In this document: one piece after another, positions 4,601 through 56,762 of the stretch
How the letters are laid out: every line of letters starts with the position of its first letter
Numbering within the stretch: the first letter of the stretch is position 1
Assembly: GCA_963971405.1 (NCBI GenBank)
Contig: OZ020489.1
Span: 15,960,290-16,024,289, forward strand
DNA length: 64,000 nucleotides
Source of the DNA: Psococerastis gibbosa
Taxonomy: Eukaryota; Arthropoda; Insecta; Psocodea; Psocidae
Direction of reading: 5' to 3'
The notes under the pieces: model-generated
What the model saw: the letters and a program-made list of their open reading frames with translations, nothing else
Told to the model about the DNA's origin: nothing
Database searches by the model: none
Translations under genes and position numbers: made by a program

Positions 4601-7600
4601 CAAGCCTCGATACATATACGATTCACAACGATATATTAACATATTGATAATTGTGACATTTATTTTGTAAAAATACGTATTGTACTTTATATTATATTTT
4701 CATGCAATATTGTGGCCTTGACTGTTGTTCATCAGTTCTCTTTTTGGGGTATTGTTTTTTTATTCCTTTAAAAACTTCAATTATTCTAGAGTCAAATCCC
4801 TTCGACTAAATTTGCGGTGTACATAGTGGATAATGTACTACCTCAATTGGATAACCTACTTGGCAGCGAAGGAAACAGTTCAGTCGAATTGGAGTTACTG
4901 AAAATATTTGCTGAGCTTACATCCCACTGCGGCATCATCGACGATCTTTCAACAAAGCTGAACGCAATTTATCAACGCCTCCTTGTAAGTATATCATTGT
5001 CTTCCATTCGTTGGTCAGTGGCAAATCCAGCTAAGAAAACATCGTTGCGATCTTAACGTGGCGGTGGCGAGGTGGTAGCATGATTGATACTTGAGAGTCA
5101 GAAACAAGTGCAATAACAGTACAAGAGCAATCTTAAAGCTGAATACTAATGCATGCGCGCACACACATCCCCTCACACACGCACACACCCCATATTATAA
5201 AATCAGATACTCCTTGTGACGGACCAAGGAAGTAGGCAATGACGTCGATTCTCTGATGCAATGGGGGGGGGGGGGGAGAATTCTATAGTAGGATAGAGCA
5301 GGGGTTCCCAAAGTGTGGTCCACAGACATATATCAGGTGATCCACGGACCAAAGGAAGACATAAGAAAATAAATTAGCTGAAATATTGGAAATTTGAAGT
5401 AAAATACAGTAAGTCTTGGCACTGAACTATAAAATCCAACCGATACCCCTCCTAAACATTTAATACTAAAAATATTAGCATTTAATTCTAGGTATAAATC
5501 ATCCTAGAATTTGACGATTTTCCTGTCACAGCTATGGTGGCCCACGGAAAATCATAGAATAATGTAGTGGTCCACGGACAAAATGTTTGGGAACCCCTGG
5601 GATAGAGGAAACAAAGTGGGATAGAGGAAACAAAGAAAGAAGTACGGAGTTTATATAATGCTATATAACTTTTGTGGCTCCCAAATTCACTCCCCGGTTC
5701 ACTCCCCGGGTTCACAGTTTCCCGCCCCGGTAAGATATTTATTTATTAAGAGTGTACGGCCCGTAGTAAATTAGCAGCCCGAAATTTAGTACTTTTTATT
5801 TTTTATTTAATTAACTAAGCAAGTTATTAAAGCCTACGGGCTGTACACTCTTAACCTGAATGGAGGTTTAATCAATTAATTGTATTGACAGAAATATCTG
5901 CCTCTGCCACCACCTGATGTCTCGGACATCTATGTACAAGAACCGCGATTGGAGTTTTCCCACGTGGAATGTCTAATGTACTCATTCCATCGACTGCTGA
6001 AACAGTGCCCGGAATTCGTGAGTGACCCTGACACCCTAAAAGACTTCAAACTCAGGTAAATATTATATTCAGAGGGAAAATTAATTGATTTTATTAGGGA
6101 TAAACGACATTGCAATGGAGAAACTCGTACAGTTTTATAAATTATATTGAGATAGCTATCAACTTTCTGCTGTTTCCAACGCCTGCTTTCGGCATTTCTG
6201 CTTTAAGCAACCATGTCAGCCTGGCGGGGGGAGTGAGTCTGTTTGTTAACTTGAGGCACCCTAAGGGCAGGCTCTTTCACCTCGGGGGAAAGGGGAGTTG
6301 ACTGACAGGGTGGACCTCCTGATTACAGCGTATTCCGAAACACTTGAGGAACATGGTATAGTCACACGATTAAATCGGAGGTGACCAGGACTCGACACGC
6401 ACTTAGGACTGACTAGTATAGTCTTGGCGCGTTATCATGTCCCACCATGTTCCCCTGCCAACGGTGTGCACACTACCAAGTTTGCCGCAGTTTAAAACAC
6501 GCTCTACTCTCATGCATTCAACATGGTAAGGCCGTCAGCGCAATCAACGTTCTTAGAATGTTATTAGATTTAAGCTAGATTTCCAATTTATTTAACATAG
6601 AGATAGTTGAACCTACAGTACATTGCCTGTTGTGTTACCAGTAAATAAATAAATAAATATATTATTTTGTTAAATTCTAGAATCAAGTAATCAACAAGAA
6701 AGTAATCGTCAAAGTTAGATAGTGTAGCCATTGTCATAGTTCTAGTGCCTCAGTGACAGTGTAGAAAGCTTTCTCGAGTCATAAGAGAGAGCCTCACAGT
6801 CATTGAACAATTAAGGTGGAGCCCGTTGTCAGTAATGACTTCTAACACAACAGGCAATGTAAGTACAACTCATAGAATAAATATTTACTACTACTAACAA
6901 CTAACTGGTCGTTACATAATATTACACCAGTGCAAATGACCTTCACAATGAATTAGATTTGCAACGATATCTATATGCTTTTATGTCCCTCTGTTTTCAA
7001 ACCTATCTACCTTGAATTTTCCTTAATTGAAGGTTGCAATACTTCGCACGTGGAATTCAAGGGTATATAAAGAAGCTACGTGAAGCATTGGCTGGGAAAA
7101 CAGACGAAGAGTTGAAGTCTGAAGACAATAAACTGAAAGTGGTCGCACTCAAGACCACCAATAATATAAATATCCTAATTAAGGACCTCTTCCACTCCCC
7201 ACCGAGCTTCAAGAGTGACGTCACTCTTAGCTGGAAAACGACATCTGGGAAGCCAAAGGAGGTATGTTAGAGTTGAATTGAATTGAATTGAAAACGACTT
7301 TATTGAATAAAAACAAAACAAAAGGCGAACAATAAGACTATAAAGTCTTCTTTTCATCCAAAAGAACCGGTACTAGTGAACCCGTAAATGCGTTCATATT
7401 TATCCATTAGGCGCCAATACCATTGACCGGCTAGGGCTATTTCCAAAAACAGTGACGTGGTAGCAGACATTCAAGACTTAGGTTGCGTTTCCACCGATCT
7501 CGCATTGCAGAATGCAAGTGACATTGACGGAAATTAGAATTTTTCTTTTTATAGAAATCTATTAAAATGTTTGTACTTAACATATCCCAAGACGCCATTT

Positions 7601-14626: not shown

Positions 14627-17600
14627 TTACAAAGCATCGACAATTTCACACATTTGTCTATCTAACTCAGAAAAGGGATCCTCGGGGCTGGTGCCAGGTG
14701 CTGCAGACTCCTGCTCGTCGGATAACTCTGTATTTATCAGCAATTTGTTATCTTGCTCCGCGGTATCAGGAAGATTACGAAGAGCTGTGTTCAGAATTTC
14801 CATTACCTAAAACAGGCACGTTTACAACAATTATTTTAAAGGAAAACAAATAGTAATTCACGTGAAGGTAGGGAGACGGTTTTGTAGTCATCATCTGTAA
14901 TAAACTCCACCAGTCACCCGAGTGTGATGTAAAAACCCTTCCCCTCCCTTACTTACTACTTACTTACTAGCCAACGCCCACCCTTGGCATGTCGGCCATT
15001 TGGTGACGCGCTGACCACCTCACCACTCCGGTTCTTTTTCAGTGTGGTATATAAATCCACCATCACCAAACTCAAAGTTGTACTGGCCTAATTGAGGAAT
15101 CCTTCCGTAAAAACACAGTCAGTAAATAGTCACTTGATTTTAAAAGCTGTGGTGCTTCTCACTTAATTTGAAAATATTCGATATTTCGAATATTCATATA
15201 TATTTCCATGGTCCGGAGAGGTACCAAGGTAACTTACCAAGTAAAATTACTGTGATTAAAATTGTAAACACATCGTACAGTTTTAACGCTAACGTGCTAC
15301 GGCTGCTGCTCCCTTACAATAATATGCTATTACCTGATAATCAAAACGTTGTCTCTAGTGATTCGTAAGGAGGAGACATAAATTAGGTTTATTGCTTTCC
15401 AATTTATACGTAGTATAAGGAAAGCTTTGTGATAGTCGAAATTTTCGATTCCGAGATTTCAACGGATTTACAAGTTTCGAGGTCCCAGGAACCCAAAAAG
15501 TGGTTTTTACGAAATGTCTGTCTGTCTGTCGCTCTGTCTGTCTTTTCATCGATTTCCGGACAAACTACTCGGTGGATTTGAATGAAATTTGGCATGTAGA
15601 TTTATAAAAATCATGCCTCGGGACCATATTTTTTTATTTTGGGCTAACTCAATTTGGGGGGGTTTTATTCTCAAAAAACTCCAAAAAAACGTCTAAAAAA
15701 ATATTTCTCAAAAACGGCTCCAACGATTTCTTTTAAATTCACATATATTGTAATCATTATTAATGTTGATAAAATGCGGGGGGTCGCTTGCCCCTTGATA
15801 GTTTGCTTCTGGGGGTAAAAAAATAAAAGTAACTATATTTTCATGAAAAATGACTAAAAAATAATTTTTCTGCGAAACCTTTCTACCGATGATTTCAAAC
15901 TTCAGGCTTGTTTTAGGTGTTAAATTGAGTAACGAAACAGGACAGTTTGCTTTCCCAAAAAACTATTGGATTTTGTGCAAAAAAATTTTTTTTTGAAAAA
16001 TTCACGCTCAAATGCATTGCGTGCCCTGACATTATTGCTGTGTGGTAATGTGTTGGTCTGGCCTGACCTATCTAGAATTTACGTCACCTTCAGTGACGTC
16101 AAGTGGACGACGCGCCCCCCCCCCCCCCCCCCCGTGTTATCGGAAATTTAGGACAATTATTTACCATGAAATTAATTATTTTCTCTCTCTACTAATCGAT
16201 AAATTGGTGAACATGTTCGAGTAAACTCGGACCGGTTCTTTAAATATCATTTATTTTCAATGTCACCTGACCTTAACTACAGGGATATGATTGACTTTTT
16301 ATTATAAAATTATACTCCGAAACCTACCCTCTCAAGATGTTTCTGAAATCGTACAGTAGTTTCGATCCGCTGCCTTCTTTGCATTTCCATCATCACCCGC
16401 AATGTTTCTCGTGCTTGATGCGGTCTAAATTCATTCAATAAATGATGAATATGAATGAACAGCAGACTTAAATCCTCAACTTTTTCGGCTCGCTTCGGAG
16501 AATCTGGGCATAGAACAAGTAAATCAAGAAGATCTAAGAAATTGACCAGAAGAGAGTGGTTTAATTTTCGAAGTTCGCGACGCCGGTCAAAGTGCTGCGG
16601 ATACAACCTCTTGATACCCTGTATAAAATAAAAAGTGTATTAGGCTATTATGTTTTATCTGTGCATTTTTTTTTTTTTTTTAATTTAACAAGGTTTAGGT
16701 ATATCTTTTTCAAACAGTACGGTATCAGTCAGAGGATAGTAATATAAATCCGTGATGGCAATGCTGTGAACGACTAATACAGGATTCAAGGACTAAGGAG
16801 CCCGTGTAAATATAAAGCCAACGATGTTGAAGATTACTGGCACAGGGTATCATCCCATCAAATATGCTGCAAGAGCCAAAGTCATCCAGGAAATACTGAT
16901 GAGCCAAAACTATTATAAAAGTTTAGCTTTTTTATTCCTTTTTCAGTTTTTACTGGACTCATAGCGTAGCGTGAACATTAAGAGCGTTCGATTTCCAACA
17001 TATTTTGTATCTGAGAATTAAAAAAACAATCATGAGATCTCTATGCTTAGGCGGCGTTTCCATTGACCTCGTTTGTGAAAGCTACCGTGATATTGACGTG
17101 GTAGCAGACATTAAAGACTGTCTAAAAATGTCTGCTACCACGTCAGTATCACGGTAGCTATCACAAACGAGGTCAATGGAAACGCCGAATTAGAAGTCAT
17201 AGATATCAGATAGTTATGCCTACCCCTATTAGACAGGGACGGATCCAGCCCATTTGGGGGGGGGGGGGGGTTGTTGGGGGTCAAAACAGGGGAAAAGAAT
17301 ATGTAGGTTCGATTTAAATCAGACCTTAATAAATTAACTTACAATATAGAATTGCTTAATTTTGGGGGAGGGGCAGCTACCCCCCTGTATTCGTCCATTC
17401 CAGTAAATAAATGGGCATTATAAATTCTTAGTAACTACAGCAACCACACTTAACTTACCTGGCTTTCCAAAGGTCTTATTATAGTATCATCGGCACTAAA
17501 TGTATTCCCAAACATGCTATAGTTATCATGTACTGGAGGAGGAGGTCTCGGGACACGTTTAAGTCGAACATTTTCGTCCGTGTATAAATTTATATACTGT

Positions 17601-20741: not shown

Positions 20742-23700
20742 CTAGCTAGAATCAGAGAGTGAATTTTGCATGTTCAAGAGTATTTGAATTATTGACTGCT
20801 TTGCAATTTTGTAATTGTCTATGCTCCTGTTCTTACACGCCCTCAATTCGCTGTCAATGAAGGCTACGAATGTGGCAATCTCGTCTGGATCCTTTCTAAC
20901 TTTACTATTTTCTATGATTGAGGTCATTAATCCAGCGCAGTTAATCAGTACTTGTTCAGGAGCAATTTCTTTTGACACTTTCTTTTTCTTTTCTGCAGGT
21001 GCCTAAAACAAAGGAAGAGTGGTTACGTATAGCTGAAGAGTATCGTAATCAATGGCAGTCGGTGAACTCTATTGGATGCTTGGAAGGGGAAACATATACG
21101 TATTCAGGGTCCATCTCAATCAGGGTCACACTTTTCGAATTACAAAGGGTGCAATTCAATAATTTTAATGGCATTGACAGATCCAAATTACAAGTTCATA
21201 ATGATTGACGTTGGGACGAAGTCGGCGACATTGGAGTTTTTGCTAAAAACAAAAATAAGGGAATGCTTGCTGAACAAATCACATTTAAATATTCCATGCG
21301 AGGGAAAGCTACCGGGGACGCAGACATCAACACCGTTTGTTGCATTAGCAGATGATACCTTTCCACTCAGTCATACAATAATGAAACCTTACGCAATGCA
21401 AGGAATACAGACTGATGAAAAAAAATGTAACTACCGACCCCCACGAGCACGACGAATGGTAGAATCGAGTTTTGGCATTCTAGTCACCAGATTTCGTGTG
21501 TTTTCGACAACCATAGCTCTGTATGTCCTCCAGAGGTAACTCTCCAGGCCTACCACTCACTTGTAATGAGCCATATAAACTACGGCATATGGGGAGGGAC
21601 CTCCGTAGGCAACATGGACGCTGTACTCAGGCTTCATAAGAGGGGAGTGCGCTACATGCTAAAACTGGAACCTCGTGACAGTTGTCGCTCTCACTTCAAA
21701 TCATTAAAAATCATGACAGCCCCAAGTCTGTACATATTTAGCTGCATCTTACGTATCTTAAAGCCTGAGGTGGGGGGGACATTGGAACAAACTCACACCT
21801 ACAACACGAGGCAACGGGGAGACCTTGTAAGGCCAGCGCCACGCACAGCCAAGTGTGAGCGACTGGATCCTATGCTACAAGGTTTCGCCTACCTTAGAAA
21901 ACTCCCGATTGAACTGAGAGCGGCGAGAAATGCTTCCAACTTCCCTAAATTGCTTAGAAACCGTCTCTTAGAGAAAGCTTTCTACACTGTCACTGAGGCA
22001 CTAGCACAGTGACAGAACTACCTGATTTTGACGATACTCTGACGACTTTATCTTATAATTTACATGTATTGTATAATTTAAAGGAAATATCGCTCATGCA
22101 CGAGAAAGTGACACATTTCAAAAAATTGCAAAATTGAGTTATTTATACAAAAATGTCGAGGAAAATATAGCGAAAAGTGTCACATATCTAGTTTTATTTG
22201 TTTCCATAAGATTGCGTTTTGTCACTGATCCATTGTCAAGTATGACTACTTCGGATTTGGCAATACTGACATAATTAGGAATGTGCTCCAGGCGTTGACG
22301 TGGTAATTACACTTCTCTTTCAAATAAACTGTCACATCTCAAAAGTATTAAGTGCCTCGATAGTACTACAAGTAAAAACTAAAAAATGGTCAGAACTAAA
22401 ATTGGGATTTTCTCAAAAGTCAATATTTAGAAATGTGTCACTTTTCTCGTGCATGAGCGGTATATATTGTATTGTATTGTACCACCGGAAACAGTCACAG
22501 ACCTGACCCTAGCATGTTGTGTTCTACACAATCTGCTTGTAGAAAAGCGTAAGGCTTCCTATACGAGAATGAAATAATACATTCAAACTAAATGGTGTCT
22601 CCTATATCGAATGTCAATCCAGTGAACGACATGAAGATATGGCTCCTTTATGCACACAGGTTGACCAAGGTTTTGCCCGCCAGGGTAAGGAAATACGTGA
22701 CAAATCGAAGACTTACTACAACACCATCGGTGCAGTTCCATGGCAAAATGAAAAAATTAATTAAGTTGCGTTCATAAATTTTTTGTTCACTTTGCATTGT
22801 AATAAATGATCTACAAAATGTGCTGGATAATACCTGGATATCAATAGTCAATGTAGGCTATTATAGCATTATTCAAAGTAATTTTTAAATAAAAAGACAT
22901 GGGCTTGGCACAGTCATAGACAAAACACCAAGCACAGATTGCGATAAGTTGTCACACTCAATGAACTCGTTCACGGAGTAAGAACAACACCACTGGATCA
23001 ATGTCTTCACCCATTTTTTGAAATTTGGTTCAGTAATATTGGAATATTTTACAGAACGCACTAAGTTGTTGAAGGAATCTTACCGGTGTTATAGTTGCAG
23101 GCTGCTCTTCCAAATACTCCCCTTGAAACTCAATATTATCAATAGAATCGTCAGCTTGTGTTTTCGCCACTAAAAACTGCATTTTGTCCCACCACCAAGC
23201 AGTTGGGGTATATGCGTCGCCAGCGTCGGTGCCAGTTTTAGTGGCTAACATCTGGGAAACAATTTTAAACTTAATTAGTGTAATTAATAAAGTCAATTAT
23301 TATCAATTATATGAACATTATATAAGAATGTTAAGAAAGATTCAGCTCATCTACGTTACCAGTTAAAGGGGGGAATAACAGGTAATTGATTAAGGAAATT
23401 AATAGGGCATAGCATGGCAGAACCAGAGCAAAGTAGAACAGGGCAAATAGGTCACCAATGACAGTTGAGTTGAGCCGGCAAAAGTCTGGGAAACATGAAG
23501 GGGGTAAGCAATGAAATAAAATTCTGAATTTAGTATCATTTTAATAGCAATAGAGGTCAGAATTCTAGGGGGTCCGGGCCAGTATGCAGACGGGGTAAAC
23601 CCCCCTCTATCGCACCCTTTCAGCTTGTAAGACTGTCTCATTGAGAGAAAAAATGCATAGTAAAAGAAAAGAATACCTTTGCCTTCTCTCTGCTAAAGCT

Positions 23701-29081: not shown

Positions 29082-32000
29082 ATGTCGGAACAACCGTGTT
29101 ACACCCTGCTTAATCTTCCGTCAGATTCTGAACAAACTAGTGAGCTTCAGTTAAAAGCCGACTTGGAGAAGGGAGATGTCAAAACTAAGATAGAGGCATT
29201 GAAGAAAACAATCCATTTAATTTTAAGTGGCGAAAGGCTTCCAGGCATCTTGATGACGATCATTCGTTTTGTCCTACCTTTGCAAGATCATATGATAAAG
29301 AAAATGCTGCTAGTTTTTTGGGAAATAGTTCCTAAGGTACGCAAATCTCAAACTCTACTGATTGTAATGTATACATAATTGCGAGAACTGTCACCGGTAC
29401 CGGAAATTTTCGGAAAGGAAATGGGTAAATACCAGTGGAAACTTTTATTATTGTGGCTAAGTTGCCCGTTGACAGATTAATTTCTTGTTTCTCTTAGAGA
29501 AATCTTTCTGCACTGTCACTGAGGCACTAGCACAATGACAATGACAGAACTACCTGATTTTGACGAAATTTTGATGATTTTACTTAATACTTTCTTGTCG
29601 ATGACTTTTTGATTACTTGATTGTATAATTTGACAAATATATATACAATATATATTTATTTGTTTATGTAGACGACTCCTGATGGAAAACTTCTCCAAGA
29701 AATGATCCTGGTCTGCGATGCGTATCGAAAAGATCTCCAGCACCCGAATGAGTTCCTCCGTGGCTCCACCCTACGCTTTCTCTGCAAACTGAAGGAGCCC
29801 GAGTTATTGGAGCCCCTGATGCCTGCAATTCGTGCTTGTTTAGAGCATAGGCATTCATATGTCCGCCGCAACGCTGTCTTAGCCATATTTACAATATACA
29901 GGTAGGTCATAGTGGAAACTGGAAATTCTCCCTTTAGAATTGGCAGTTTTTAAGAGAACTCTCGTCAACAGCCATTATAAAGAGCTTGAAACGGTATGTT
30001 GGTTACCTCCCGAATTGCGGGTTTCGAAGTAGTTCATCTACCCTCAGAACGGATGGGGGTTACATAAACTGAATGTCGGTAGAGAGACGACTCGAACGAC
30101 CAGCCCTGGTTACTGGTCATGGTTTGGTCAGAGCCCTCATGGCGAAATGGGGTCATGGAGGTCCTACCGTCTGCCGGCATTGCAAAGAGTCGGAGGAAAC
30201 CGCGGAACACGTGGTTCGCCACTGTCCAGCCCTGTGGCGGGCGCGGTTGGACTGTTTTGGGGCTGCCTACATCGACCAGGTCGATCTGATTGACTTGCAG
30301 TTGACGGACATAGTTTGTCTTTGCTAACAAGGTTTAGCCGCTGTTTTTCGACAGTTATTAATTGGCAATGGTCATAGTATGAATGATTGGGGTACACTGA
30401 TGTGATACTAGTGATTATGCTGTTCAAAGGTTCCCCAGACCTATGTCAGCTCAACACTCAAAATAATAATAAAAATAATAATAATGCCATAGTGCATAGT
30501 GCACTCTTAATTTTAAAACATTATCTTTCCAGAAACTTCGAGTTCCTTATCCCAGACGCGCCCGAGTTGGTGGCCAATTTTCTGGAAGGTGAACAAGACA
30601 TGTCATGCAAGCGTAACGCTTTTCTCATGCTTCTTCACGCTGATCAGGACCGCGCCTTGGCATATCTGGCATCATGTCTCGATCAAGTGTCTGCATTTGG
30701 GGACATACTGCAGCTCGTCATAGTTGAACTAATCTATAAGGTAGCGCCATTGTATAGGGCATTGCGAATAGGCGGCTATTCCACCGACGTGGATTTTCAA
30801 TGTGAGTGTGTCATGACGTGGTTGCAGACATCATTAATACGTCTCTACCATATTATAACTTAATTTACAATAGATAACCACGAATAAAATACCACGTCAT
30901 GACACATTCACATTGAAAATCCACGTCGATGGAATAGCCACCATAGGCAAAATGAAGATTTGGAATAAAATTTTCTGTAGCTTTCAGAAAGCTGAAATAT
31001 TGTTTTGATAGACAAATAAGATAAATAAATAAAATAAAACCGTATTTCTAAAAAAAAAAAATGTCCATTCGTGGGATCAGTTTCTTAGTACTTGAATTGT
31101 TGATCTGTGTAAATTTTAGGCTACTTGTCGTGTTCATTTTCGTTAAATACGCTACTATTTTCAGGTATGTCATGCGAATCCAAGCGAAAGGTCCCGGTTT
31201 ATTCGATGTATTTATAATTTACTCAATTCCAACAGCCAAGCGGTGCGATATGAAGCGGCTGGAACACTACTTACTCTCTCAAGCGCACCTACAGCTATTA
31301 AGGTAAGATTCAATGCATCTGTTTTTTACTTGTTGATTTATTAATTTGTCATAATGGCACTTGATAAAGCAAATCTCATGTCCATATTTTGCCGATTTTG
31401 TAATACTACAAATGTCCAATATTTCTTTTAAATCACATAATCGTTTCTTGCAGTAACATTTATTCGAATTCTTTTGTTTTAAGGCCGCTGCGAGTTGTTA
31501 CATTGAAATCATACTTAAAGAAAGCGACAATAATGTTAAATTGATTGTGTTGGACCGTCTTGTCGCTCTCAAGGAGCACCCTACTCATGAACGCGTTTTG
31601 CAAGATCTTGTAATGGATATTCTACGTGTTTTGGCAACTCCTGATCTAGAAGTGCGTAAAAAGACGTTAAATCTTGGTAAGTTGACGGAGCTTAAGAGTG
31701 GAGACTCGCTCTACTCACTCACTAGCTTGATATTTTGGACGTATTTAGGAAGGCTTGTAAAAATATGCGTAGGAATTTACGAAATGGTCCAAAAGAGGGC
31801 ATACAATACTCCATGTACTGATTAGAGTGCCAGCGTGACCGGTTCAGATGGTTTCGTCTTGTTATATTGTTATATCGTATCTGTACTTGGTTAAGTCATG
31901 CTTTCGCCTGTTTCGTTGCGTCAATAGAAAGCTTGTGTGAGCTTGTCCATTATCGCTTGAAGCCGGTGTAGGTTGACATCGAGAACGTATACCAGTTTGC

Positions 32001-41000: not shown

Positions 41001-44000
41001 GATCTATATCGGAGAGATGGGACATTTGCTGTCTGATTGGTGCCGCCTGCCACGTCTTTTATTACCGCTGACTGGTCAATGAAGACGTGGCATGAGACCC
41101 AAGAAATTCATAAAATATGTCCCCTCCTATATAGAACTCTAGATGGAGCCTTATTTAACATTGATTTTGTGCCCAACGCCATTGCCCACTGCCTTCAATT
41201 TCTGTGACTGACAAAAGCCGAAATTAGAGGATATGGAAAAAACTGGGCTTGGCGGGATTCGAACCCACGATCTATGCCTAACCGGGGCTCTAATTTCGGT
41301 TATAACGAGGAGGTTACCTCTTCAACCAAAGTTAATTTAATGTCAGTGTTACATATACCATATAATACTACAATGTAAGGACTGACAAAAGGACTCTACC
41401 AATATCAATGTAATGCTGCTTTTTTACATTAGAAATTACTGAAACCCTCAGAACAAGTTACACTCACGGTATTGCATTTTTATTGTTGCAACCTACCCCA
41501 TCTCATATTGCCCTACACAAACCTGAAGTACGACTTGACCTAACCTTCAAACATGTATTATAAATATTTATGCCCCGTAAGCGTGCAGTAATACAGGTTG
41601 CTCTTATAATATGATTTAACAAAACATTATATTATTAATATTTATGTACCCGTAAGCATGCAGTTTCCGGTATAATATAGTATAATATGACTCAACAAAT
41701 GTAAATAAATACAGTGGACCTTAATCCGACGCTGCCTTCTCGAATCACGGCCGACAGAAGCAGTGGTTGGGGTTGCACTAAAGCGGGGGCACAATCAGCG
41801 CACCGTTGTTTTTACTGGGGTTGTTGCTCAACATTTTTTATTCAATATAATTATTCTTTCCACACTGAATCTCCATCACACATGGTTTTTTAAAATCGTT
41901 CAACATCGAGTAATACAATGGGTCTTCTCAGTATTGTATATTGTATTGCATATGCAGTAAAGAGCATACAAAATGACTAATGAAGACACAAGTGCAGCCG
42001 TTTGCATAAAAGCAAAGTACTACAATGGACAACTTTCATATACCATAGGCCATATAGAATTATCAGCTGTGATTGGGTTGTCAATTCCCAAACATAGTGC
42101 CCATGATTAACTTAATCGTCGCTTGTTGATTGTTGATTGTTTGGCTTGGCCCCCCATAATTAATTTTTGAATTTACAGCAACTTAATTTTTAACTTACAC
42201 CAAAATTATATGCTAATAATCCAATGACAGTTATTGATTTTAAGGATTACTTCATTATACAGGGTTTGTCCGGAAAGTAATGTCAGTGAATTTTTTTTAC
42301 GGAGACTGTACGCGCAAGCGCGCGCTTTACTGGCTCAGATTTTGTTGGGGGGATCTGGCTTTCGACGACGATTGCCTTTCGGGTAGGCAATTTTTCCGTT
42401 GGCACAAGGCCTTCGCAGAAGGTCGGGAAGACGCGAACGTCGAGCCCCGCGCTGGACGGCCATCAACATCCACTACCGACGACAATGTGCAACATGTGCG
42501 TGACTTGTTGAACACTGATCGTCGTGTAAGTGTCCGTTTGATTTTCGACTAATTAAACATTTCTAAAACCTTAAACAGTAGTGGAGGTTAGGGGCCGCCC
42601 AGCGCGGGGTCGTCGTTGGTGTCTTCCCGACCTTCTGCGGAGGCCTTGTGCCACCGGAAAATTTGCCTACACGAAAGGCAATCGTCGTCGAAAGCCTTCT
42701 TCAACATTATAATGGTTTCCGCAGCACTCTTCTCCAGTTTTACCCAAAACTAGATCGCCATCCGTTGCTCAAGCGAACACTTTTTGCTTTCCAATTTATA
42801 CGTAGTATAAGGAAAGCTTTGTGATGGTCGAAATTTTCGATTCCGAGATTTCAACGGATTTACACGTTTTGAGGTCCCAGGAACCCAAAAAAGTGGTTTT
42901 TACGAAATGTCTGTCTGTCGCTCTGTCGCTCTGTCTGTCTGTTCATCGATTTCCGGGCAAACTACTCGGTGGATTAGGGTGGAATTTGGCATGTAGGTTC
43001 ACAAAAATCATACCTCGGGACCATTTTTTTTTTATTTGGGGCTTTTTATTCTCAAAAAACTCCGAAAAAACGTCTAAAAAATTATTTCTCAAAAACGGCT
43101 CCAACGATTTCTTTTAAATTCTCATATATTGTAGTCGTTATTAATGTTGACAAAATGCGGGGGGTCGCTTGCCCCTTGATAGTTTGCTTCTGGGGGTAAA
43201 AAAATAAAAATAACTACATTTTAATGAAAAATGACTAAAAAATAATTTTTCTGCGAAACCTTTTTATCGATGATTTCTACCTTCAGGCATGTTTTAGGTG
43301 TTAAATTGAGTAACGAAACCGGATAGATTGCTTTCCCAAAAAACTATTTGGTTTTGCACAAAAAATTATTATTTGAAAAAATGATAGAGAATTCGCTCTC
43401 AAATGCATTGCATGCCCTGCCATTATTGCTGTGGTAATTAATGTGTTTGTCAGATCTATCTAGAATTTACCTCACTTCCAGTGACGTCAGGTGGACAACC
43501 TCCCCCCAGATATCGGAAATTTAACCACTAGAAAATTATTTACCATGAAATTACTCATGTTCTCTATCTACTAATGTTGATAAATTGGAAAGCATGTTCG
43601 AGTAAACTCGGACCGGTTCTTTTCTCTTTGCACCGGGTTACTGTACCGACTCACATGGAACAACTGATGTGACCACTACAACGACCGGTTGCCAGCTGAC
43701 GCTTGTTGGAACTTGTTGAGCCAGTAAAGCGTGCGCTTGCGCGTACCGTACCGCGTCTCCGTAAAAAAACAATTCACTGACATTACTTTCCGGACAAACC
43801 CTGTAATTCAAATGATCAATATAGCGAACTACTATTTCTTCGTAAAATATATTACAAGCGTGTATGTATGTAATAAAATAAAATGTGATACAATATTCCT
43901 GTTCCCATAAGTCAACCATGGGCGTTATTTTTCGGAATCAGTCAGATAAGGGCATTATGCCACATTGTTTTTATTCAATACATAGTTGTATTATATGGTA

Positions 44001-47015: not shown

Positions 47016-47913
47016 TAACTTTGACCATCCCTGTCATTGGGACTCTGTCTCTGTGTTCCAGTCGCTAGGGACAGGATTTTGGGCTGAGCTGCATTAAGTA
47101 CCGTAAACTTTTAATTTGGGTGATCGTCGCAAGGTTTATTTATGCTTAGCTCTCTTTTGTATGTGGGTGTAATTGTAATAATTCTTTACGTGAAAAGAGA
47201 GGCAGTTATAGGATAAATATCTTGTCTCTACAATCAATACCATGTGGCATGGTCACTTTGAGACGAAAACCAGGCATTTTTCTCTTAGTAAGTTTATGTC
47301 ATCTTAAATTAAGTTATGAAATTTAGACTATAGTCACCGGTCACATTAATAGTAGGCCTGTAAACATAGGCATCACCTACCGGTACCTATAGCCTATGTA
47401 GCACGATTTATAAATAGGTACCGGTAGTCATCAATTTTTACTTTCTTTTTCAATTAAATCACTTAAACGTTCTTAATTAGCTCGAAATGTAACATTGCAT
47501 AGGTAGATTGGTCGCGTTTATTGTCAATAGCTTACCCGGTCTATCTAGCCTAGTGGCCTATCAAAGTCTCCTTTTCAGGTTTTCTATGGCCATGTAAGTT
47601 ATCAATTTGATGATTGACCTCTAAGGAAAGACATTATCAGTGTTGCTGCTATAAATATGCCAACTATTTCACTTGGTGCAGACAGTTGAAAGTAATGTGA
47701 TCAGCGGCGGTGTTAAATCATGCATTATTTGGTAAGTGCTACATATTAGGCCTACAGTAAACCAGTGATGTATATGTATAATATTTTCAAGAGGGGTACC
47801 AGATCGAATCTAGCTATCAACTTCTTCGTGTCTAAATTTATTAGATTTAAAAAAAAACTATGTAGCCTATTACTTATTCCTCTTCTAATGCCTCTACTAT
47901 CGAAGTCTGATGA
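47016..47913. other. Gene-free stretch
   Basis: AT-rich with many TAGGCCTA-like words. No gene or shared repeat is recognised. An upstream exon of the gene at 48798 could lie here, but I could not place one. Confidence 0.35.
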
Positions 47914-48181
47914 GGCGGCAATTCCACCGGCGAATTTACTTCATTTGTGATTTGAGAGTTTTTGTTTGTTTTGTTTTAAGGAGACTATTATGTAGATACT
48001 TAACTTATCTATTATAAATTAAGTTATATTATGGTAGCCGACATCATTAATAAGTCTCAACCATATTATAGCTTAATTTATAATAGATAAGTTAAGCATC
48101 TATATAACAGTCTCCTTAAAACAAAACAAACAAAAAATCTCAAATCACAAATGAAGTAAATTCGCCGGTGGAATTGCCGCC
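47914..48181. mobile_element. MITE, group H4, complete
   Basis: GGCGGCAATTCCACCGGCGA and its inverse, with a central palindrome on TAGATACTTAACTTATCTAT. Cleaner than the 11906 copy. Confidence 0.85.
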
Positions 48182-48797: not shown

Positions 48798-51700
48798 AAA
48801 TGTCCCATCAGTAACACCATCCTAGCATGGACACTAATGATGCTGTTGGAATCTAGCAGTTCTCACTGCGATACGAAGCACATTCGGCTTACATACCTTC
48901 TCGCCTGCTCTGCTAAGAAAAAACGAGGAGGCGTAAACTTTTATAACGAAATAGAAAAGGGACGGAAGATATCCCGACGATTTTCAGCGGGTAACTCCTT
49001 CCTCAATGCATTAACTGGCGTTACTGAAGGTAAAATAATATATTTGAAATGCTCCAATGCCATATTGAGAACCTAGTTAACTTACTATACTCTACCTACC
49101 TATAAGGACCACTCCGATTAATTAAATCCGATGGACAAATTTGGGATGCCATGCAAATCTATATTTCTAATAATATATTTTTAATTTCTAGACGTGCGCT
49201 ATTGATCGCAATATTGAAATCTGAGTTAGGGGATGCGTGAAAACAGAGATTTCAAAATGGTTGAAATGAATGAATAATTAATTCCTCGTTCCTATAAATG
49301 ATATGAAAATAGTCGAATGAAAAATGCATTCAAATTACAAGCTTTTGCAATAAATTAACATTTTCTGACTGATATAAATTTATTTATATTATATTATATT
49401 ATATTGAATTATTCATTATTCTTTGCGGCTGTACAATACAATACAATGCAATATATATTTCCTTTAAATTAAACAATACATGTAAAGTATAAGATAAAAT
49501 CGTCAGAGTATCGTCAAAATCAGGTAGTTCTGTCATTGTCATTGTGCTAGTGCCTCAGTGACAGTGTAGAAAGCTTTCTATAAGAGATGGTTTCTAAGCA
49601 ATTTAGGGAAGTTAGAAGCATTTCTCGCCGTTCTCAGTTCAATCGGGAGTTTTTTAAGGTAGGCGAAACCTTGTAGTATAGGATCCTGTCGCTCACACTT
49701 GGCTGTGCGTGGCGCTGGCCTTACAAGGTCTCCCCGTTGCCTCGTGTTGTAGGTGTGAGTGTCCCCGTTTTGTTTAAATGTCTCCCACACCTCAGGCTTT
49801 AAGATATGTAAGATGCAGCTAAATATGTACAGACTTGGGGCTGTCATGATTTTTAATGATTTGAAGTGAGAGCGACAACTGTCCCGAGGTCCTAGTTTTA
49901 GCATGTATCGCACTCCTCTCTTTTGAAACCTGAGTACAGCGTCCATGTTCCCTACGGAGGTCCCTCCCCAGGCCAATATGACGTAGTTTATATAGTTTAT
50001 AGTTATTTTATATAACAAGTGAGTGGTAGGCCTGGAGAGTTACCATCGGAGGGCACACAGAGCTAAGGCGCCTGACGAAGAGGCCACTATATATATTTTT
50101 TTTAATAGCTCAGCCCCGTGTTTATTCCAGTTTAAGTCCTTGTTAACTTGCATTCCTAAGAATCTGACGCTGTGAAATAAGAAGTTTCGTTTACAAACTA
50201 TTTTCAAGTCTGTCTCTTAAGGCATCATTGTAATTTTTTATATATTGCTGACTAGCAACGAGCAGTATTGCCTGCTTCATGTAGGTCGCTAGTGAGTCAA
50301 CAAACATGCACTAGACTACTATTAAGTAGGGTAGTGCTTGAGGATAACACGTACAATAATTGTCATATTTAGACTTACCTGTACTGTATTTAAAAGGATC
50401 CGTTCGAAATCGAAATTGATTGGTTTGTAAATAGGCGCAACTGCATAGCTCTCCACCAGCATGTAAGTACATTGTATGGTATAAGCCCCCCCCCCCCCCC
50501 CCCCCCGTGCTCTGCTATATACAGGATTGTCTGTTGCCGGTTGAATACTGGAATGGGGCTTCAATGTGTCTATTAAATTATCTAGTTCCCTGAAGTTCCC
50601 TGAATGGAGAACCAGTAGAATCCGGGCTGATGGGCTGTGGTCGAATTGAAAGTGAACTTCCAAACGTTTCGTCAACATCTGCGGTCGACATCTTCAGTGG
50701 CGCTGCGTAGACTTCGAAGGTTGTACCTCGGTGGCTCCGTAGCGAGTGAGTGAGAGGAGCCACCGAGGTACAACCTTCGAAGCCTACGCAGCGCCACTGA
50801 AGATGTCGACCGCAGATGTTGACGAAACGTTTGGAAGTTCACTTTCGATTCGACCACGGCCCATCAGCCCGGATTCTACTGGTTCTTCATTTGACTCCGG
50901 CCGTGAAAGCTTTTGCAGTTACATATCTAGTTCCCTATTACCTCATTTACAATAATTTTAAAGTGACAGACAATTTCAATGTTTTGTCAATGACTTACTG
51001 TAGATGTGTTTTAGGGTTTGATGAAGCCGACAATGACGAGTTAATGTTTCACGAGGACACACTGAAAGAAGCAAGGGAATCTTTGAAAATGGGAGACGGT
51101 GGTGTGGCGCTAGGAGGTAATGAAATGATAAGATTTAAAGAAAATACCAATAGGCCGACAACAATAGGCTTACAATTCTAGTATTTAGCCTACTTATTGG
51201 TCCTACCATACATACAATTTCCTTTCATTTGTACTGACTGGTTTGAATGTCGGATGGCAACGGTCATTTGACCAATTACAGCCGAACCATTTAAAATTCC
51301 AAATGAGTCCTCACTGTAAGTTAAGAGTAAACGGATGTGGAACGAAATTGGACAAAATACGATAAGTCAATATGCATATCATTGTACATAATAAAAAATT
51401 ACAGCATTTAAAGTTAATTAAATATTTACACTTCAAATAACAAAATATAGGCCTATTGTAATTATTTGGATTTTATTGTGGAATTGAGGTTTATATTATA
51501 TATTTATATTTTATATTTATGTAGTAGGCAACAGCCCACCTGCAATAAAGTTGTTTTGTAAACTTTTTAACATTTTCTCTATCGTTGCCATTAAAAAAAA
51601 AAAATATTTTTTCCGACAAATCGCCTTTTACATTCTTGCTGCTCAACTAGGCTACAATATATTAAGCACCGACAGTATGCTATGTAAGTATGAGTCTAAG

Positions 51701-51877
51701 TTTTCCGATGACTTAATGTTTGCAGGGATGATGAAAGAAGACTCTTTGTACATTCTAAGTGACCTACTAGACGACGATGTTGTTAACAATGTTATTAGTC
51801 GGAGGGAGATATCGGAATTGATCGACAAATGCTGCAAGTTTACGTGCTCTGCTATAGATTTCATTAAGGCGTGTTAA
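48798..51877 (+). CDS. Insulin-superfamily peptide, gonadulin/Ilp8-like candidate (5' exon missing)
   Basis: Exons 48798-49029, 51015-51116 and 51726-51877 (stop 51875-51877). Both introns are phase 1 and GT-AG, giving 161 visible residues. The first exon opens with a hydrophobic signal-peptide-like stretch (ISNTILAWTLMMLL), then a B-chain-like HCDTKHIRLTYLLACS followed by a KKKR cleavage site. A further ISRR site occurs. The last exon has SRR, then ELIDKCCKFTCSAIDFIKAC at the very C-terminus, which is a canonical A chain, CC-x3-C-x8-C. The B-chain cysteines are 12 residues apart instead of the usual 11. Insulin-family prohormones are secreted and cleaved at dibasic sites. The missing GIV(E/D)xCC form and the A chain at the extreme end argue for gonadulin over arthropod IGF. 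The initiating ATG must be in an upstream exon, or be 48837. It is adjacent to, and convergent with, the Ilp7 gene. Family 0.8, subtype about 0.5. Confidence 0.72.
49439..50095 (-). mobile_element. LINE fragment, second copy of the 21.5-kb family
   Basis: RT C-terminal frame at 50018-49578 (WGGTSVGNMDAVLRFQKRGV, LKLGPRDSCRSHF, HTYNTRQRGDLV, LPIELRTARNASNFPK) followed by the 3' end down to 49439. Intact at the site where the other copy holds a small inverted-repeat element. In intron 1 of the insulin-like gene, antisense. Confidence 0.85.
50610..50888. repeat. Near-perfect palindrome, family F
   Basis: Two arms of about 135 bp (50610-50745 and 50753-50888) around a 7-bp spacer. The arms contain CATCTGCGGTCGACATCTTC and TACAACCTTCGAAG. 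Diverged single-arm relatives lie at 190-415 and 61235-61385. Not coding. Confidence 0.85.
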
Positions 51878-52040
51878 ATATACTGTATTTATTCCTTATT
51901 ATGAAAGTATTTATCAATCCCCCACTCAAGCACTGTCTATTATTCGTAGTTCCATAGGCTAATAACAGTATACAGTAGCGTGCACATAACAATTTTTTAG
52001 AAGGCAGAGGCCAGAAGACTGCCCCTAGCAATTAACTTCT
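51878..52040. other. 3' flank of the insulin-like gene
   Basis: Short AT-rich interval. No AATAAA is seen directly after the stop. Confidence 0.3.
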
Positions 52041-52497
52041 TATGACGCATATTCCATATAGGTACGTCAATATCCAATAGTAAATGTGGTATTGACGGAC
52101 ATTTCAATTTTACTCTATGCCATTGTTAAAATTGATCAATGATCATAGAGTAAAATCACGCGCTGCAAACAATAACAAAGTTAAGTACAAACATTTTAAT
52201 AGATTGTTTATAAAACAGTTTTCATCCATTAACCAGATCGGTGAAGGTCGATCTTACTTCCGATCTCCTACTATTATTAGGTTTTATTAAAAATAATAAG
52301 TGTACGAAGAAAACAAACAAAAAAAATTTAAAAAAACAAATGCAAACAAATTTCAAAAATTTGGCGCATACGTGTCAATAGAAGAAAAGTGATCAATAGT
52401 TGAAAAAACATGTGGAATGTAGTGTAAAAATGAAAAATTGAAATTTCCGTCAATACCATATTTACTATTGACTATTGACGTATATGGAATAAGCGCC
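52041..52497. mobile_element. MITE, group H3, long form with a transposase-region remnant
   Basis: Ends ACGCATATTCCATATAGG and TATATGGAATAAGCGCC. The interior at about 52212-52262 matches 19199-19246 (ATCGGTGAAGGTCGATCTTA), the presumed N-terminal part of the Harbinger transposase. It is therefore an internally deleted copy. Confidence 0.7.
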
Positions 52498-53586
52498 TAA
52501 TGCGAGCCGACGACCGGGACGAGTCGTCTCGGCTCTGTTAATGCTACTCCTAGCCTTAGACCGGATTACTGTCATAAATTATACATTTTCTTATTAAAAA
52601 AAGGCGACTCCTTTTTCCTTTTCTCGGATTCTCCAACTCCTAACTTTCGTCTCCTCGTGCAGTTCTCTATACCCACAGGACCGAGCCGGCATCATAAAAA
52701 CCCCATCCGCAACAAACATTAAAATATATATACATAACTCATAACATCATCCTGGCAAGAAGGTCCGGGCCGGTCGACGTATGTTACCTTAGGTTTTTAT
52801 ATGTAGAGCCTATACAAATAAAAACTTCCTTGGGAACTCATTTGGATTAACTAGATGTCGTCTTATAAATAAATATAATTTTTGTTTATTCTTTAAACCC
52901 CTAATTTCTGGCATAATTGAATGTGTTTAATTATTTAATTTTGCATTTTACATTACAGGGTAACATGAGTTCAGATAGATCCCCCCCCCCCCGAAAAATT
53001 TCAGGCTACGGCCTTGCTGCGGGTTAATTGCAATTGCAATTCCGCCAATTTCGCTTTAAATAATCGATTTGACGATTTCATTTCCTTTAATTTTTAATTT
53101 TCATAATAAATTATAACCATAAGATTTGTTCTAAATAAGTGCAACGTAAAATAGTGAATTTATTTATCAAAATACACTAAAATATGAGGTGGTTATTCCT
53201 AAAATTATTGGTATGGCCCGGGCCATACCAAGCCTTATAGAACCGGCGCCCATGCCGGGTACCGCTCACTGTTGACCCGAACATCTATTAGATCTGGTAA
53301 ATTATGCATTGCAACAATTAACTCACATTAGTTAATTGTGGCTTACTTTTTCTCCCCCCCCCCCCATATAGCCTACGCCACTGACCGTATAGAGTAGTCA
53401 ATTCCAATTGAGTATAATATGGTATATTGTGCATTAAATTCACTTAATTAGAGAAACAGCCTCCACAGTATATATCCGATAAAGAAAATCAAGGAAAACT
53501 GGACAATAGAATTGAAAATTCAATAAATTCAAATATGGCAATAAGCCACTCACAGACTTAGTTTAGAATGGTTTATACTGTTGTGA
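52498..53586. other. Gene-free stretch
   Basis: AT-rich, with short poly-C runs at 52980 and 53356 and similar flanking text (CTCCCCCCC...TAGCCTACG) to about 57000-57180. No gene recognised. Confidence 0.35.
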
Positions 53587-53981
53587 GGCGCGGTTTCCAC
53601 CGACCGGCTAGGGCTAAATACAAATACGGTGACGTGGTAACAGACATTCAAGACTTAGGCGGGATTTCCACCGCCCTCGCATTGCAGAATGCAAATGACA
53701 TTGACGGAAATGTTTGTTTTTCATTTTATTGAAATCAATTAAAATGTTTGTAATTAACATATCCCATGACGCCATTTTTTAATTTTAGTTTGTTTGTTTG
53801 TGATTTTACTCTATGATCATTGATCAATTTCAACTATGGAATAGAGTAAAACAAACATTTCCGTCAATGTCATTTGCATTCTGCAATGCGAGGTCGGTGG
53901 AAACCCCACCTAAGTCTTGAATGTCTGCTACCACGTCACCGTATTTGTATTTAGCCCTAGCCAGTCGGTGGAAACCCCGCC
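53587..53981. mobile_element. MITE, group H1, best-preserved full copy
   Basis: GGCGCGGTTTCCACCGACCG and its inverse, TGA/TTA flanks. Both halves show outer termini and nested inner termini (GGCGGGATTTCCACCG). On minus, from 53773, it reads M-A-S-W-D-M-L-I-T-N-I-L-I-D-F, matching the MADF protein start. Confidence 0.85.
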
Positions 53982-54254
53982 TTAACATAAGTAGTATATA
54001 TACTTGTTGACTAGCATCATGTACCTAGGGAACTAAGAGATAACTTTGCAGGTGGAACAACAGATAGCGTAACACCTGTAAGGTATAGAGCGTGGGTTCA
54101 AGTCCAACTCTGTCCATTTTTTTCATGGTTTAGGCTGTAGAGTAGACTGTACCTTCCTTACACAACCTATCATGTACAAGCCTATCCGTCAAACTAATGA
54201 ATCCGTAGACCTTATTTTGATAATAAAATTGAAGACAAAAATAGATTGAATAAT

Positions 54255-56762
54255 TTATTTTTGGGGTGGAAAAGTTTGTATCCTGTGATTGTAGGGGCAA
54301 TACTCGGCGTACTCTTCCCAGGTGCATCCGCCCCCGCTGCAGCACTCGTCAGTAATACTGCCTGTAGAAGGTCGCCGGGAACGAAGAAAGGTCCGAGCAT
54401 TTTTCTTGGATATTAAATGCATTTTTTGCCAATCTAATCCTATAAAAATAAATCTATTGGTTTATACTTCGGTGCCAAGGTGGTAGTGAGCATGTACTTG
54501 TGCGAGTATCTGCACACCTTGCGGTCGGAGACGTGTCACAACTCGACACAAGTACCTATTAGGTGACTTAGTGAGGCGATTGAAAAGGTTAATTGGATAC
54601 ATTCATTAAATTGTTGGTACGCGATTTAACTTTTTTTTAAATAAAAAATAAAATAAAAATACATGAAAATTAATTTTGATCGAAAAAAAATTTGATTTTA
54701 TACCTAACAAAGGTTATTATTCAACCCAGCCTCGAACTCTAGTAGGGTCTTAGGGGAAGACGCGCTCCTACGCTTAGGAATGAGCTGTCCTATGCTGTGC
54801 TACCGGGCCGTTTTCGCGCCAAATATCCTTACCCCAGTTGTACAAGTATCTCCTGTAGGAAATGTCTGAGAAAAATTTCCATGCTGCTCCTCTTCTAAAA
54901 GGTTCCTAGATACGTGCCTGTATTAATGCAAATGTTCCCTATTTCAGTACATATAGATAGTACGTATCTAAAGAGCAATAAAATTAGGCCTATAAATACA
55001 TTGACGTAATGAGATAAATTGCCTTGTAATATTTTCATGCAGATCCGATAACGTTATGCTTTTACGAGAACTTCGAGTATTTGGTATAGGCCTAGTGTAG
55101 AAAGCTTAAATCGTATATCTGACGTCATTTGCTTAGGATAATCGAGAAGACTGGGCTTAAGTGGCACTAACAACGTAATTAGACATCCTCTCATCGGGTG
55201 ACCGCTAAGGTGCCACACTTGCCTATTCCTCTTGTTGATCCTAACCAAATAACGTCAGATCCGAGCTAAACATGTTCCACTCAGTGGCGGAACGTGAATG
55301 TGAGGCGTGCAATGCCGCATTACACTCAACAAATCTTTAGAATGGATTAAGAGTTTCGTTGATATCTATAGGAAGCCGCGAGCAAAAAAGATTGTATGAG
55401 AATGATTTTATCAACGCAGTCTAAGAAAATTAAGAATCTCGTCACGTTAGAATTCGAATGTTTTCTTTTTATTGTTATCAATTTTTTACTTTGTATGAAG
55501 ATAGAACATGCGCTATATAAAATGATGCGTGTTTTTTTTTAAGCTTAAATAACTATTTTCAAGCATTACACTCGCAATTATCCCACGCTCCGCCACTGGA
55601 CTTCCACTATAAGTCTATACCATCCCAGTGGGTTTTGCCCACAAACTATAGGTTTTTCTCACCATAGTCAATCCTCTTTCTCCTCGAAACTTTGTAAATG
55701 TCCTTTTCACAAGCCCAATCCAAATGTTTGGCAAGACTTTCACGACAGCGAACATGACTCTCCTGGTGCCATACGGAGGCCCAGTCTTGATCCGACCTAT
55801 TAAAAAATAAACCAAAAAAACAATCGATTAGTATTGATATTTTATTGGGAGGAAATGTACCCACACGCACCTAATAAAAATAAAAATCACAATAAAGAAC
55901 AAACCAGTTGAATTTTCTACAATATAACAGTCACCGGCTGGAATTTGGGGTTTCCTGTACCTATCTTACACAATGACTTCTAAAATTTAATTTCAAAATA
56001 AAAATGTATTTAGCAATCAATTCCACAGCTGTTTCGATGATATTGGTGTTATCACTGCTGTTGCTGATTATACTTTAAATTTCAAATTAAATTTTATAAT
56101 TTTTCGCTTCCGCTAGACTAGACTAGAAACCCTCACTTTGGTTACAATACCTTCTCTGCTTCTGAATACATGAAAGTGTGCTGACCCTCCACCTTCAGGT
56201 AGGCTAGGTAGATACTGATTTAAATGTAAGTTATTTATACATAAATGCATCCAATTACTTAAAGCAGTAAAAATATGACATCAACATTCCTACTATTATT
56301 ATTATAGTGAGCTTTCGACTACCTATTGAGACGGTGACCAATGATTGACTTTCGGAAAATTTCTTCATAATGTTTTATTTCATCGCCCCTGAGCCTAAAT
56401 TATATATACTGTATGTAGGCCTATATATTAAATATTTGTAATGTATATACTGTATGTATACATATGTAGGCCCTATGTACATATGCATGTAATATCCATA
56501 TTAGGAAACTCTGTGGATTCCGACTGATGCTCCCCCATGGTTTATTCACAATGTATGGTTGAATAATGCAGGATTCCACTTTCCGTAAGTTTTCTACCAA
56601 ATGAGTGATACTTACAAGACAATGTAAGAATTATAAATTAATATACAGTACCTACCTTGCCCGGAAAAGCCTCTCTTGTCGTTGTTCTTGTTCAGTTAGT
56701 GAAGCGAGGATTGAATCCTGCACGAGGAGATACAGAGCAACTGATATTTTAGGCAAATTCAT
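54255..56762 (-). CDS. Ilp7: Ilp7 / relaxin-like insulin-family peptide, complete, 3 exons
   Basis: Coding exons on minus: 56762-56656 (signal peptide), 55796-55663 (B chain), 54439-54255 (C-peptide end and A chain). Phases are 2 then 1; the phase-1 intron in the C-peptide is the hallmark of the insulin superfamily. There are 141 residues. Signal stretch LPKISVALYLLVQDSILA. The B domain contains WHQESHVRCRESLAKHLDWA with C53-x11-C65, then CEKDIYK and the RRKR cleavage site (74-77). FLRSRR (98-103) precedes the A chain TDECCSGGGCTWEEYAEYC (cysteines 113, 114, 119, 128; CC-x4-C-x8-C). This combination, especially CTWEEYAEYCP and WACEKDIY, matches Drosophila Ilp7 and arthropod relaxins, which are secreted neurohormones. 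An acceptor at 56781 suggests a 5' non-coding exon. It is convergent with the insulin-like gene at 48798. Confidence 0.95.
54476..54645 (+). repeat. Interspersed repeat family B (SINE-like)
   Basis: GTGCCAAGGTGGTAGTGAGC, GCGGTCGGAGACGTGTCAC and the GGATACATTCATTAAATTGT tail, then A-rich. In Ilp7 intron 2. Confidence 0.6.

Follow-up and report, generated by a model that had tools for sequence, protein, structure and literature searches.

The question raised by this locus is whether two neighbouring insulin-superfamily hormone genes of an insect are what remains of an ancient gene triplet. The pair lies in a 64-kb window, the whole stretch of DNA that was analysed (C14:15960290-16024289, in an assembly of 409 Mb and 68 contigs); coordinates below are window positions unless they are prefixed C14. 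The earlier note on this DNA had described an Ilp7/relaxin gene on the minus strand and, about 2.4 kb away, a gonadulin-like gene on the plus strand, and had suggested that the pair would be direct evidence of a local triplication that produced arthropod gonadulin, insulin-like growth factor (aIGF) and relaxin. We find that the locus most likely consists of two tail-to-tail insulin-superfamily genes, the minus one being Ilp7; how firmly the plus gene belongs to the superfamily is graded separately. The reported spacing is correct, with 2,377 bases (51878-54254) between the two stop codons.

The identification of the minus gene as Ilp7, the arthropod relaxin, is near certain. The gene is intact from 54255 to 56762, and its three exons on the minus strand (56762-56656, 55796-55663 and 54439-54255) join in frame to encode a precursor of 141 amino acids. 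Exon 1 contains the start codon and signal peptide and ends in a phase-2 donor, exon 2 encodes the F domain (DW...WHQESH), a B chain with the spacing C-x11-C and an SRRKR site, and exon 3 encodes the A chain CCSGGGCTWEEYAEYC. The intron phases, 2 and then 1, form the pattern described for the dilp7 orthologues of ambulacrarians (PMC8286064). A protein search returned 39 homologues among 41 candidates at E <= 1, with the ladybird Ilp7 as the best match (E 1.2e-31, 47% identity). When the window's Ilp7 was aligned with nine of these 39, the F domain and both chains proved conserved and 41 columns were invariant, among them the tryptophans of the F domain, the full set of six cysteines and CTWEEYAEYCP. 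At some near-invariant places of the same alignment the window's sequence departs from the others: the C-domain PW is missing, and H stands instead of K after the A chain. Its codon score, from a table built on 854 COPB1 and MED7 codons, exceeds those of 229 out of a set of 265 open intergenic stretches, each 50 codons or longer. The match to Pfam PF00049 (E 0.0036, 18.7 bits) is below the cut-off of 23 bits. Homologues, conserved residues and intron phases together bear out what had been claimed for this gene.

The plus gene contains three long exons, here numbered 2 to 4, which are separated by introns with GT/AG ends, both in phase 1. Exon 2 (48798-49029) encodes the rest of the signal peptide, a B-chain-like segment with the spacing C-x12-C, the site KKKR and further basic sites. 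Exon 3 (51015-51116) is a C-domain exon of 102 bases with phase 1 at both ends, and its skipping would preserve the frame. Exon 4 (51726-51877) encodes the end of the C domain, an SRR cleavage site and an A chain, CC-x3-C-x8-C, whose last cysteine is followed directly by the stop codon; no strong donor was seen by eye beside the stop. The C domain, which separates the two cysteines of the B segment from those of the A segment, has the basic sites KKKR, KGRK, SRR and SRR. One additional cysteine falls within the predicted signal peptide. The three exons, their A-chain motif and the dibasic sites are thus as they had first been described, as is the length of 161 residues, counted from the lysine at 48798. 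A phase-1 intron in the C domain, of which the plus gene has two, is given in PMC8286064 as common to insulin genes.

The leader of this product is hydrophobic, with a peak nine-residue Kyte-Doolittle mean of 2.21. Between 46000 and 48780, only two ATG exons of at most 19 codons with a phase-0 GTAAG or GTGAG donor were found, starting at 47249 and 47720. The latter (47720-47731, plus; M-H-Y-L, donor GTAAGT, phase 0), with TATAAATA 70 bases upstream, gives the more typical leader, MHYLKCPISNTILAWTLMMLLESSSS, as judged by eye. It is the predicted exon 1, and would complete a precursor of 165 residues.

The introns of the plus gene and the DNA nearby also contain repeats. Large, near-perfect inverted repeats occur at 47914-48181, 50603-50891 and 53586-53982, with arms of 122-136 bases that are 95-97% complementary. 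Two of them are inside plus-gene introns, in one case an intron (the first) that is itself only proposed, and the third is between the genes; all three look like foldback elements or miniature inverted-repeat transposable elements. Two similar open frames, at 49578-50039 (minus) and 21431-22012 (plus) (GGTSVGNMDAVLR..KRGVRYMLKL...), appear by eye to be retroelement remnants and have no Pfam match at E <= 0.01. The first of these also lies within an intron of the plus gene.

How readily could an arrangement such as the plus gene arise by chance? The strict pattern CC-x3-C-x8-C occurs once in the six frames of the window, in the plus-gene A chain. Among 18,007 windows simulated with an order-2 Markov model, there were 150 in which the A motif lay no more than three residues from a stop. 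None had the full configuration, by criteria chosen after the gene was seen: the A motif at a stop, a phase-1 acceptor, and an upstream B-like exon with a dibasic site and a phase-1 donor. A smaller run also gave the full configuration in 0 of 400. The real-DNA control was a scan with a somewhat looser A pattern over 140 kb fetched from the genome (100 kb flanking the window and 40 kb from elsewhere); its one match is the A exon of another true insulin-like gene, at C14:18318639-18318743. The plus coding sequence has a higher codon score than 252 of the 265 intergenic stretches, and than its own five other readings. Exon 3 scores highest of the three long exons, but on only 33 whole codons compared with null stretches of at least 50. 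No paralogue was found in the 409-Mb assembly, all three scored matches at E <= 10 being the gene's own exons.

Several results weigh against membership of the plus gene in the insulin superfamily. The codon scores of exons 2 and 4 are modest, being matched or beaten by 8% and 6% of the null stretches. The B-like cysteine pair has the spacing C-x12-C and not the C-x11-C usual in insulins, although spacing is reported to vary between insulin-like peptides and C-x11-C is not strictly defining. In comparisons with shuffles that kept the cysteines fixed, the B segment was no closer to that of Ilp7 than the shuffles were (p 0.84), and the A segment appeared only weakly insulin-like, with p 0.027 against Ilp7 and p 0.023 against an insulin-like exon. 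The plus product had no match in Pfam, PF00049 included, even at E <= 10, and its only match in the PDB was a chance one (E 3.8). A search of 5.8 billion proteins, of a kind limited to relatives with short exact words in common, gave 45 word-sharing candidates, none of which matched at E <= 10, and returned no gonadulins.

The earlier note had named a profile search without an insulin signature in the 161-residue product as an outcome that would overturn its reading, and this is formally the outcome obtained. We consider the criterion weak, because the adjoining, true Ilp7 also falls under the Pfam cut-off and because the first decapod gonadulin-type peptide is likewise described in PMC5618481 as having no significant BLAST hits. 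If the gene is a gonadulin, a failure to match is what would be predicted, but it proves nothing. Architecture supports the superfamily, and no profile does. The same empty searches and modest codon scores would fit a gene model that is an artefact, made of three open stretches mimicking an insulin precursor by chance. Such mimicry is hard to reconcile with its absence from all the simulated windows, with exons, phases, stop and basic sites that all follow the order seen in insulin precursors, and with a position 2.4 kb away from Ilp7, in a place where a gene of this kind would be expected. We regard the artefact as very unlikely, and it is highly probable that the plus gene is a member of the insulin superfamily.

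Within the superfamily, the plus gene is probably, though by no means securely, a gonadulin (Dilp8-type). Gonadulins are described as six-cysteine peptides that are too unlike the known insulin-like peptides for easy recognition (PMC7357564). We infer the label from the adjacency to Ilp7, the absence of recognisable similarity, the basic sites of the C domain, the lack of a C-terminal extension and the phase-1 C-domain intron. The predicted prohormone would consist of a signal peptide, a B domain, a C domain with multiple basic sites and an A domain whose final residue is its last cysteine; this anatomy and the neighbouring Ilp7 favour the gonadulin-like subtype that had been proposed, while the subtype itself keeps its conditional standing. 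Synteny, a supporting rather than a defining character of gonadulins, points both ways. Relaxin is adjacent, but the clustered gonadulins in published descriptions adjoin aIGF, and no aIGF motif is present in 164 kb around the plus gene.

The plus gene might instead encode an aIGF in reduced form, or else a sirp (short IGF-related peptide), beside Ilp7. IGF is the middle gene of the clusters as published, and would therefore be the neighbour of Ilp7; the A segment LIDKCCKFTC is also somewhat like that of the insulin-like exon, IVDECCKKSC, to which the p of 0.023 refers. In addition, there is just one insulin receptor tyrosine kinase in the head louse, whose insulin-like peptides are not clearly separable into insulin and aIGF. 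However, the plus gene lacks the C-terminal extension on two further exons that is described for aIGF, shows no CG following the first cysteine of its B segment, is spaced C-x12-C, and includes a long C domain in which basic sites recur. Moreover, the tail of aIGF in published accounts of the clusters faces gonadulin, and so not Ilp7. We consider an aIGF or sirp unlikely, and gonadulin the better reading of the plus gene.

If the plus gene encodes a gonadulin, both precursors of the pair would, from what is usual in their families, lose a signal peptide and be cleaved by convertases at basic sites, and three disulfides would join the A and B chains. Gonadulin would be secreted from the gonads and perhaps from other tissues, and would act through the relaxin-type receptor LGR3; Ilp7 would be secreted from neurons and act through LGR4. 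These receptors are stated for the two hormones in PMC8286064 and PMC10148640. A search of the genome for LDLa scored 150 matches and was not receptor-specific. Some published observations do not fit this scheme: a shrimp gonadulin was modelled as a ligand of the insulin receptor (PMC13283809), and a lobster gonadulin-type peptide is reported to be expressed mostly in brain and eyestalk (PMC5618481). Ilp7 is also described as possibly using a receptor kinase, which speaks against a simple split between receptors.

The balance tips modestly towards the pair being a gonadulin-relaxin remnant of an ancestral gonadulin-IGF-Ilp7 triplet, from which the middle IGF gene would have been lost or moved away. 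The gap between the two stop codons is without an A-chain motif, and therefore no middle gene is recognised in it. A motif scan of 164 kb (the window with 60 kb to its right and 40 kb to its left), which is blind to A chains split by introns or with other cysteine spacings, found no further A chain. Two loose C-x-C matches on the minus strand, at 31408-31458 inside COPB1 and at 51630-51674, were rejected as not insulin-like. A genome-wide search with PF00049 missed even the window's own Ilp7 exons, and was the only profile search to cover the flanks. Because the scan was motif-based and the genome search missed Ilp7, an aIGF may exist unseen elsewhere. The only PF00049 match reported from the genome at E <= 0.001 (two candidates were scored) is a typical insulin-like A-chain exon, RGIVDECCKKSCTLSEMKGYCRP, the one that the real-DNA control also hit, on the minus strand at C14:18318639-18318743, on the same contig and 2.3 Mb from the pair. 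This gene is probably a short IGF-related (neuroendocrine) insulin, and 31 kb of sequence upstream of the exon yielded no recognisable B-chain exon.

Given that no middle aIGF was found, this lineage shows a remnant pair at most. A triplet that lost or expelled its middle IGF gene, leaving the ligands of two relaxin-type receptors as a direct tail-to-tail pair, is a tentative proposal to which we give slightly less than an even chance. If true, it would be a natural case of two ligands of G protein-coupled receptors staying linked without the ligand of a receptor kinase. What survives of the claim of direct evidence for the triplication is a possible remnant pair. Such evidence is not new in kind, because full triplets, which are stronger cases, have been published.

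The window also contains genes to the left of the hormone pair, namely API5 (4790-5056, plus), MED7 (16310-16639, minus) and COPB1 (29079 to about 39000, plus), which can be used as synteny anchors. In a quick tree of 46 rows, comprising the window and 45 of the 120 listed homologues, the window's COPB1 forms a sister branch to the lice Polyplax and Pediculus with SH-aLRT 99, and the nearest sequence is 95% identical. Lice are members of Psocodea, and the host is, on this tree, an insect close to lice and probably itself a psocodean. Its membership of Psocodea is only probable because a long Cephus row is oddly grouped with mayflies and because 75 listed rows were left out. An open frame at 42244-42552 (plus) begins by eye like a mariner-type transposase, with a helix-turn-helix match under the Pfam cut-off. 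No tRNA genes and no Rfam families at gathering score were found in the window.

No gonadulin of Psocodea came up in the open-licence literature, which was searched for the group together with gonadulin and together with insulin-like peptides. The plus gene provides a gonadulin candidate for this group, gonadulins being a kind of hormone that similarity does not easily reveal. The locus would extend to another insect lineage the published cluster argument concerning the two receptor kinds of insulin-like hormones, and it illustrates one route of cluster decay.

Gonadulin, aIGF and relaxin are described as neighbouring genes in cockroaches, termites, stick insects and a mantis (PMC7357564, PMC10148640, PMC11874938), and gonadulin and aIGF together in spiders and in a locust (PMC8220825). 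Ambulacrarians carry a matching triplet (PMC8286064), and IGF is in the middle of the clusters as published. In the arthropod triplet (Blattella, Zootermopsis, Timema, Tenodera and others), as here, Ilp7/relaxin in an insect accompanies an insulin-like gene that has six cysteines and is poorly conserved; in our window, by contrast, the plus gene and Ilp7 are directly tail to tail, and an aIGF was recognised neither between them nor anywhere in the 164 kb. The locust pair is likewise made of two triplet members, tail to tail on one scaffold, but these are described as gonadulin and aIGF with about 42 kb between their stops, whereas here one member is Ilp7 and no aIGF was found. The ambulacrarian octinsulin-IGF-dilp7 cluster shares with our locus a dilp7 orthologue with phase-2 and phase-1 introns and an insulin-like neighbour. 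Octinsulin is reported to have eight cysteines and one coding intron, whereas the A and B domains of the plus gene together contain six cysteines and its coding introns number two or three. The decapod ILP2/gonadulin of PMC5618481 resembles the plus gene in its lack of BLAST hits, in several dibasic (RR) sites in the C peptide and in a C-terminal A chain, a likeness of description rather than of sequence or gene neighbourhood. Set beside these systems, the locus leaves the published picture unchanged; what it adds is one more lineage of insects and a pair lacking the IGF gene, which sits centrally elsewhere.

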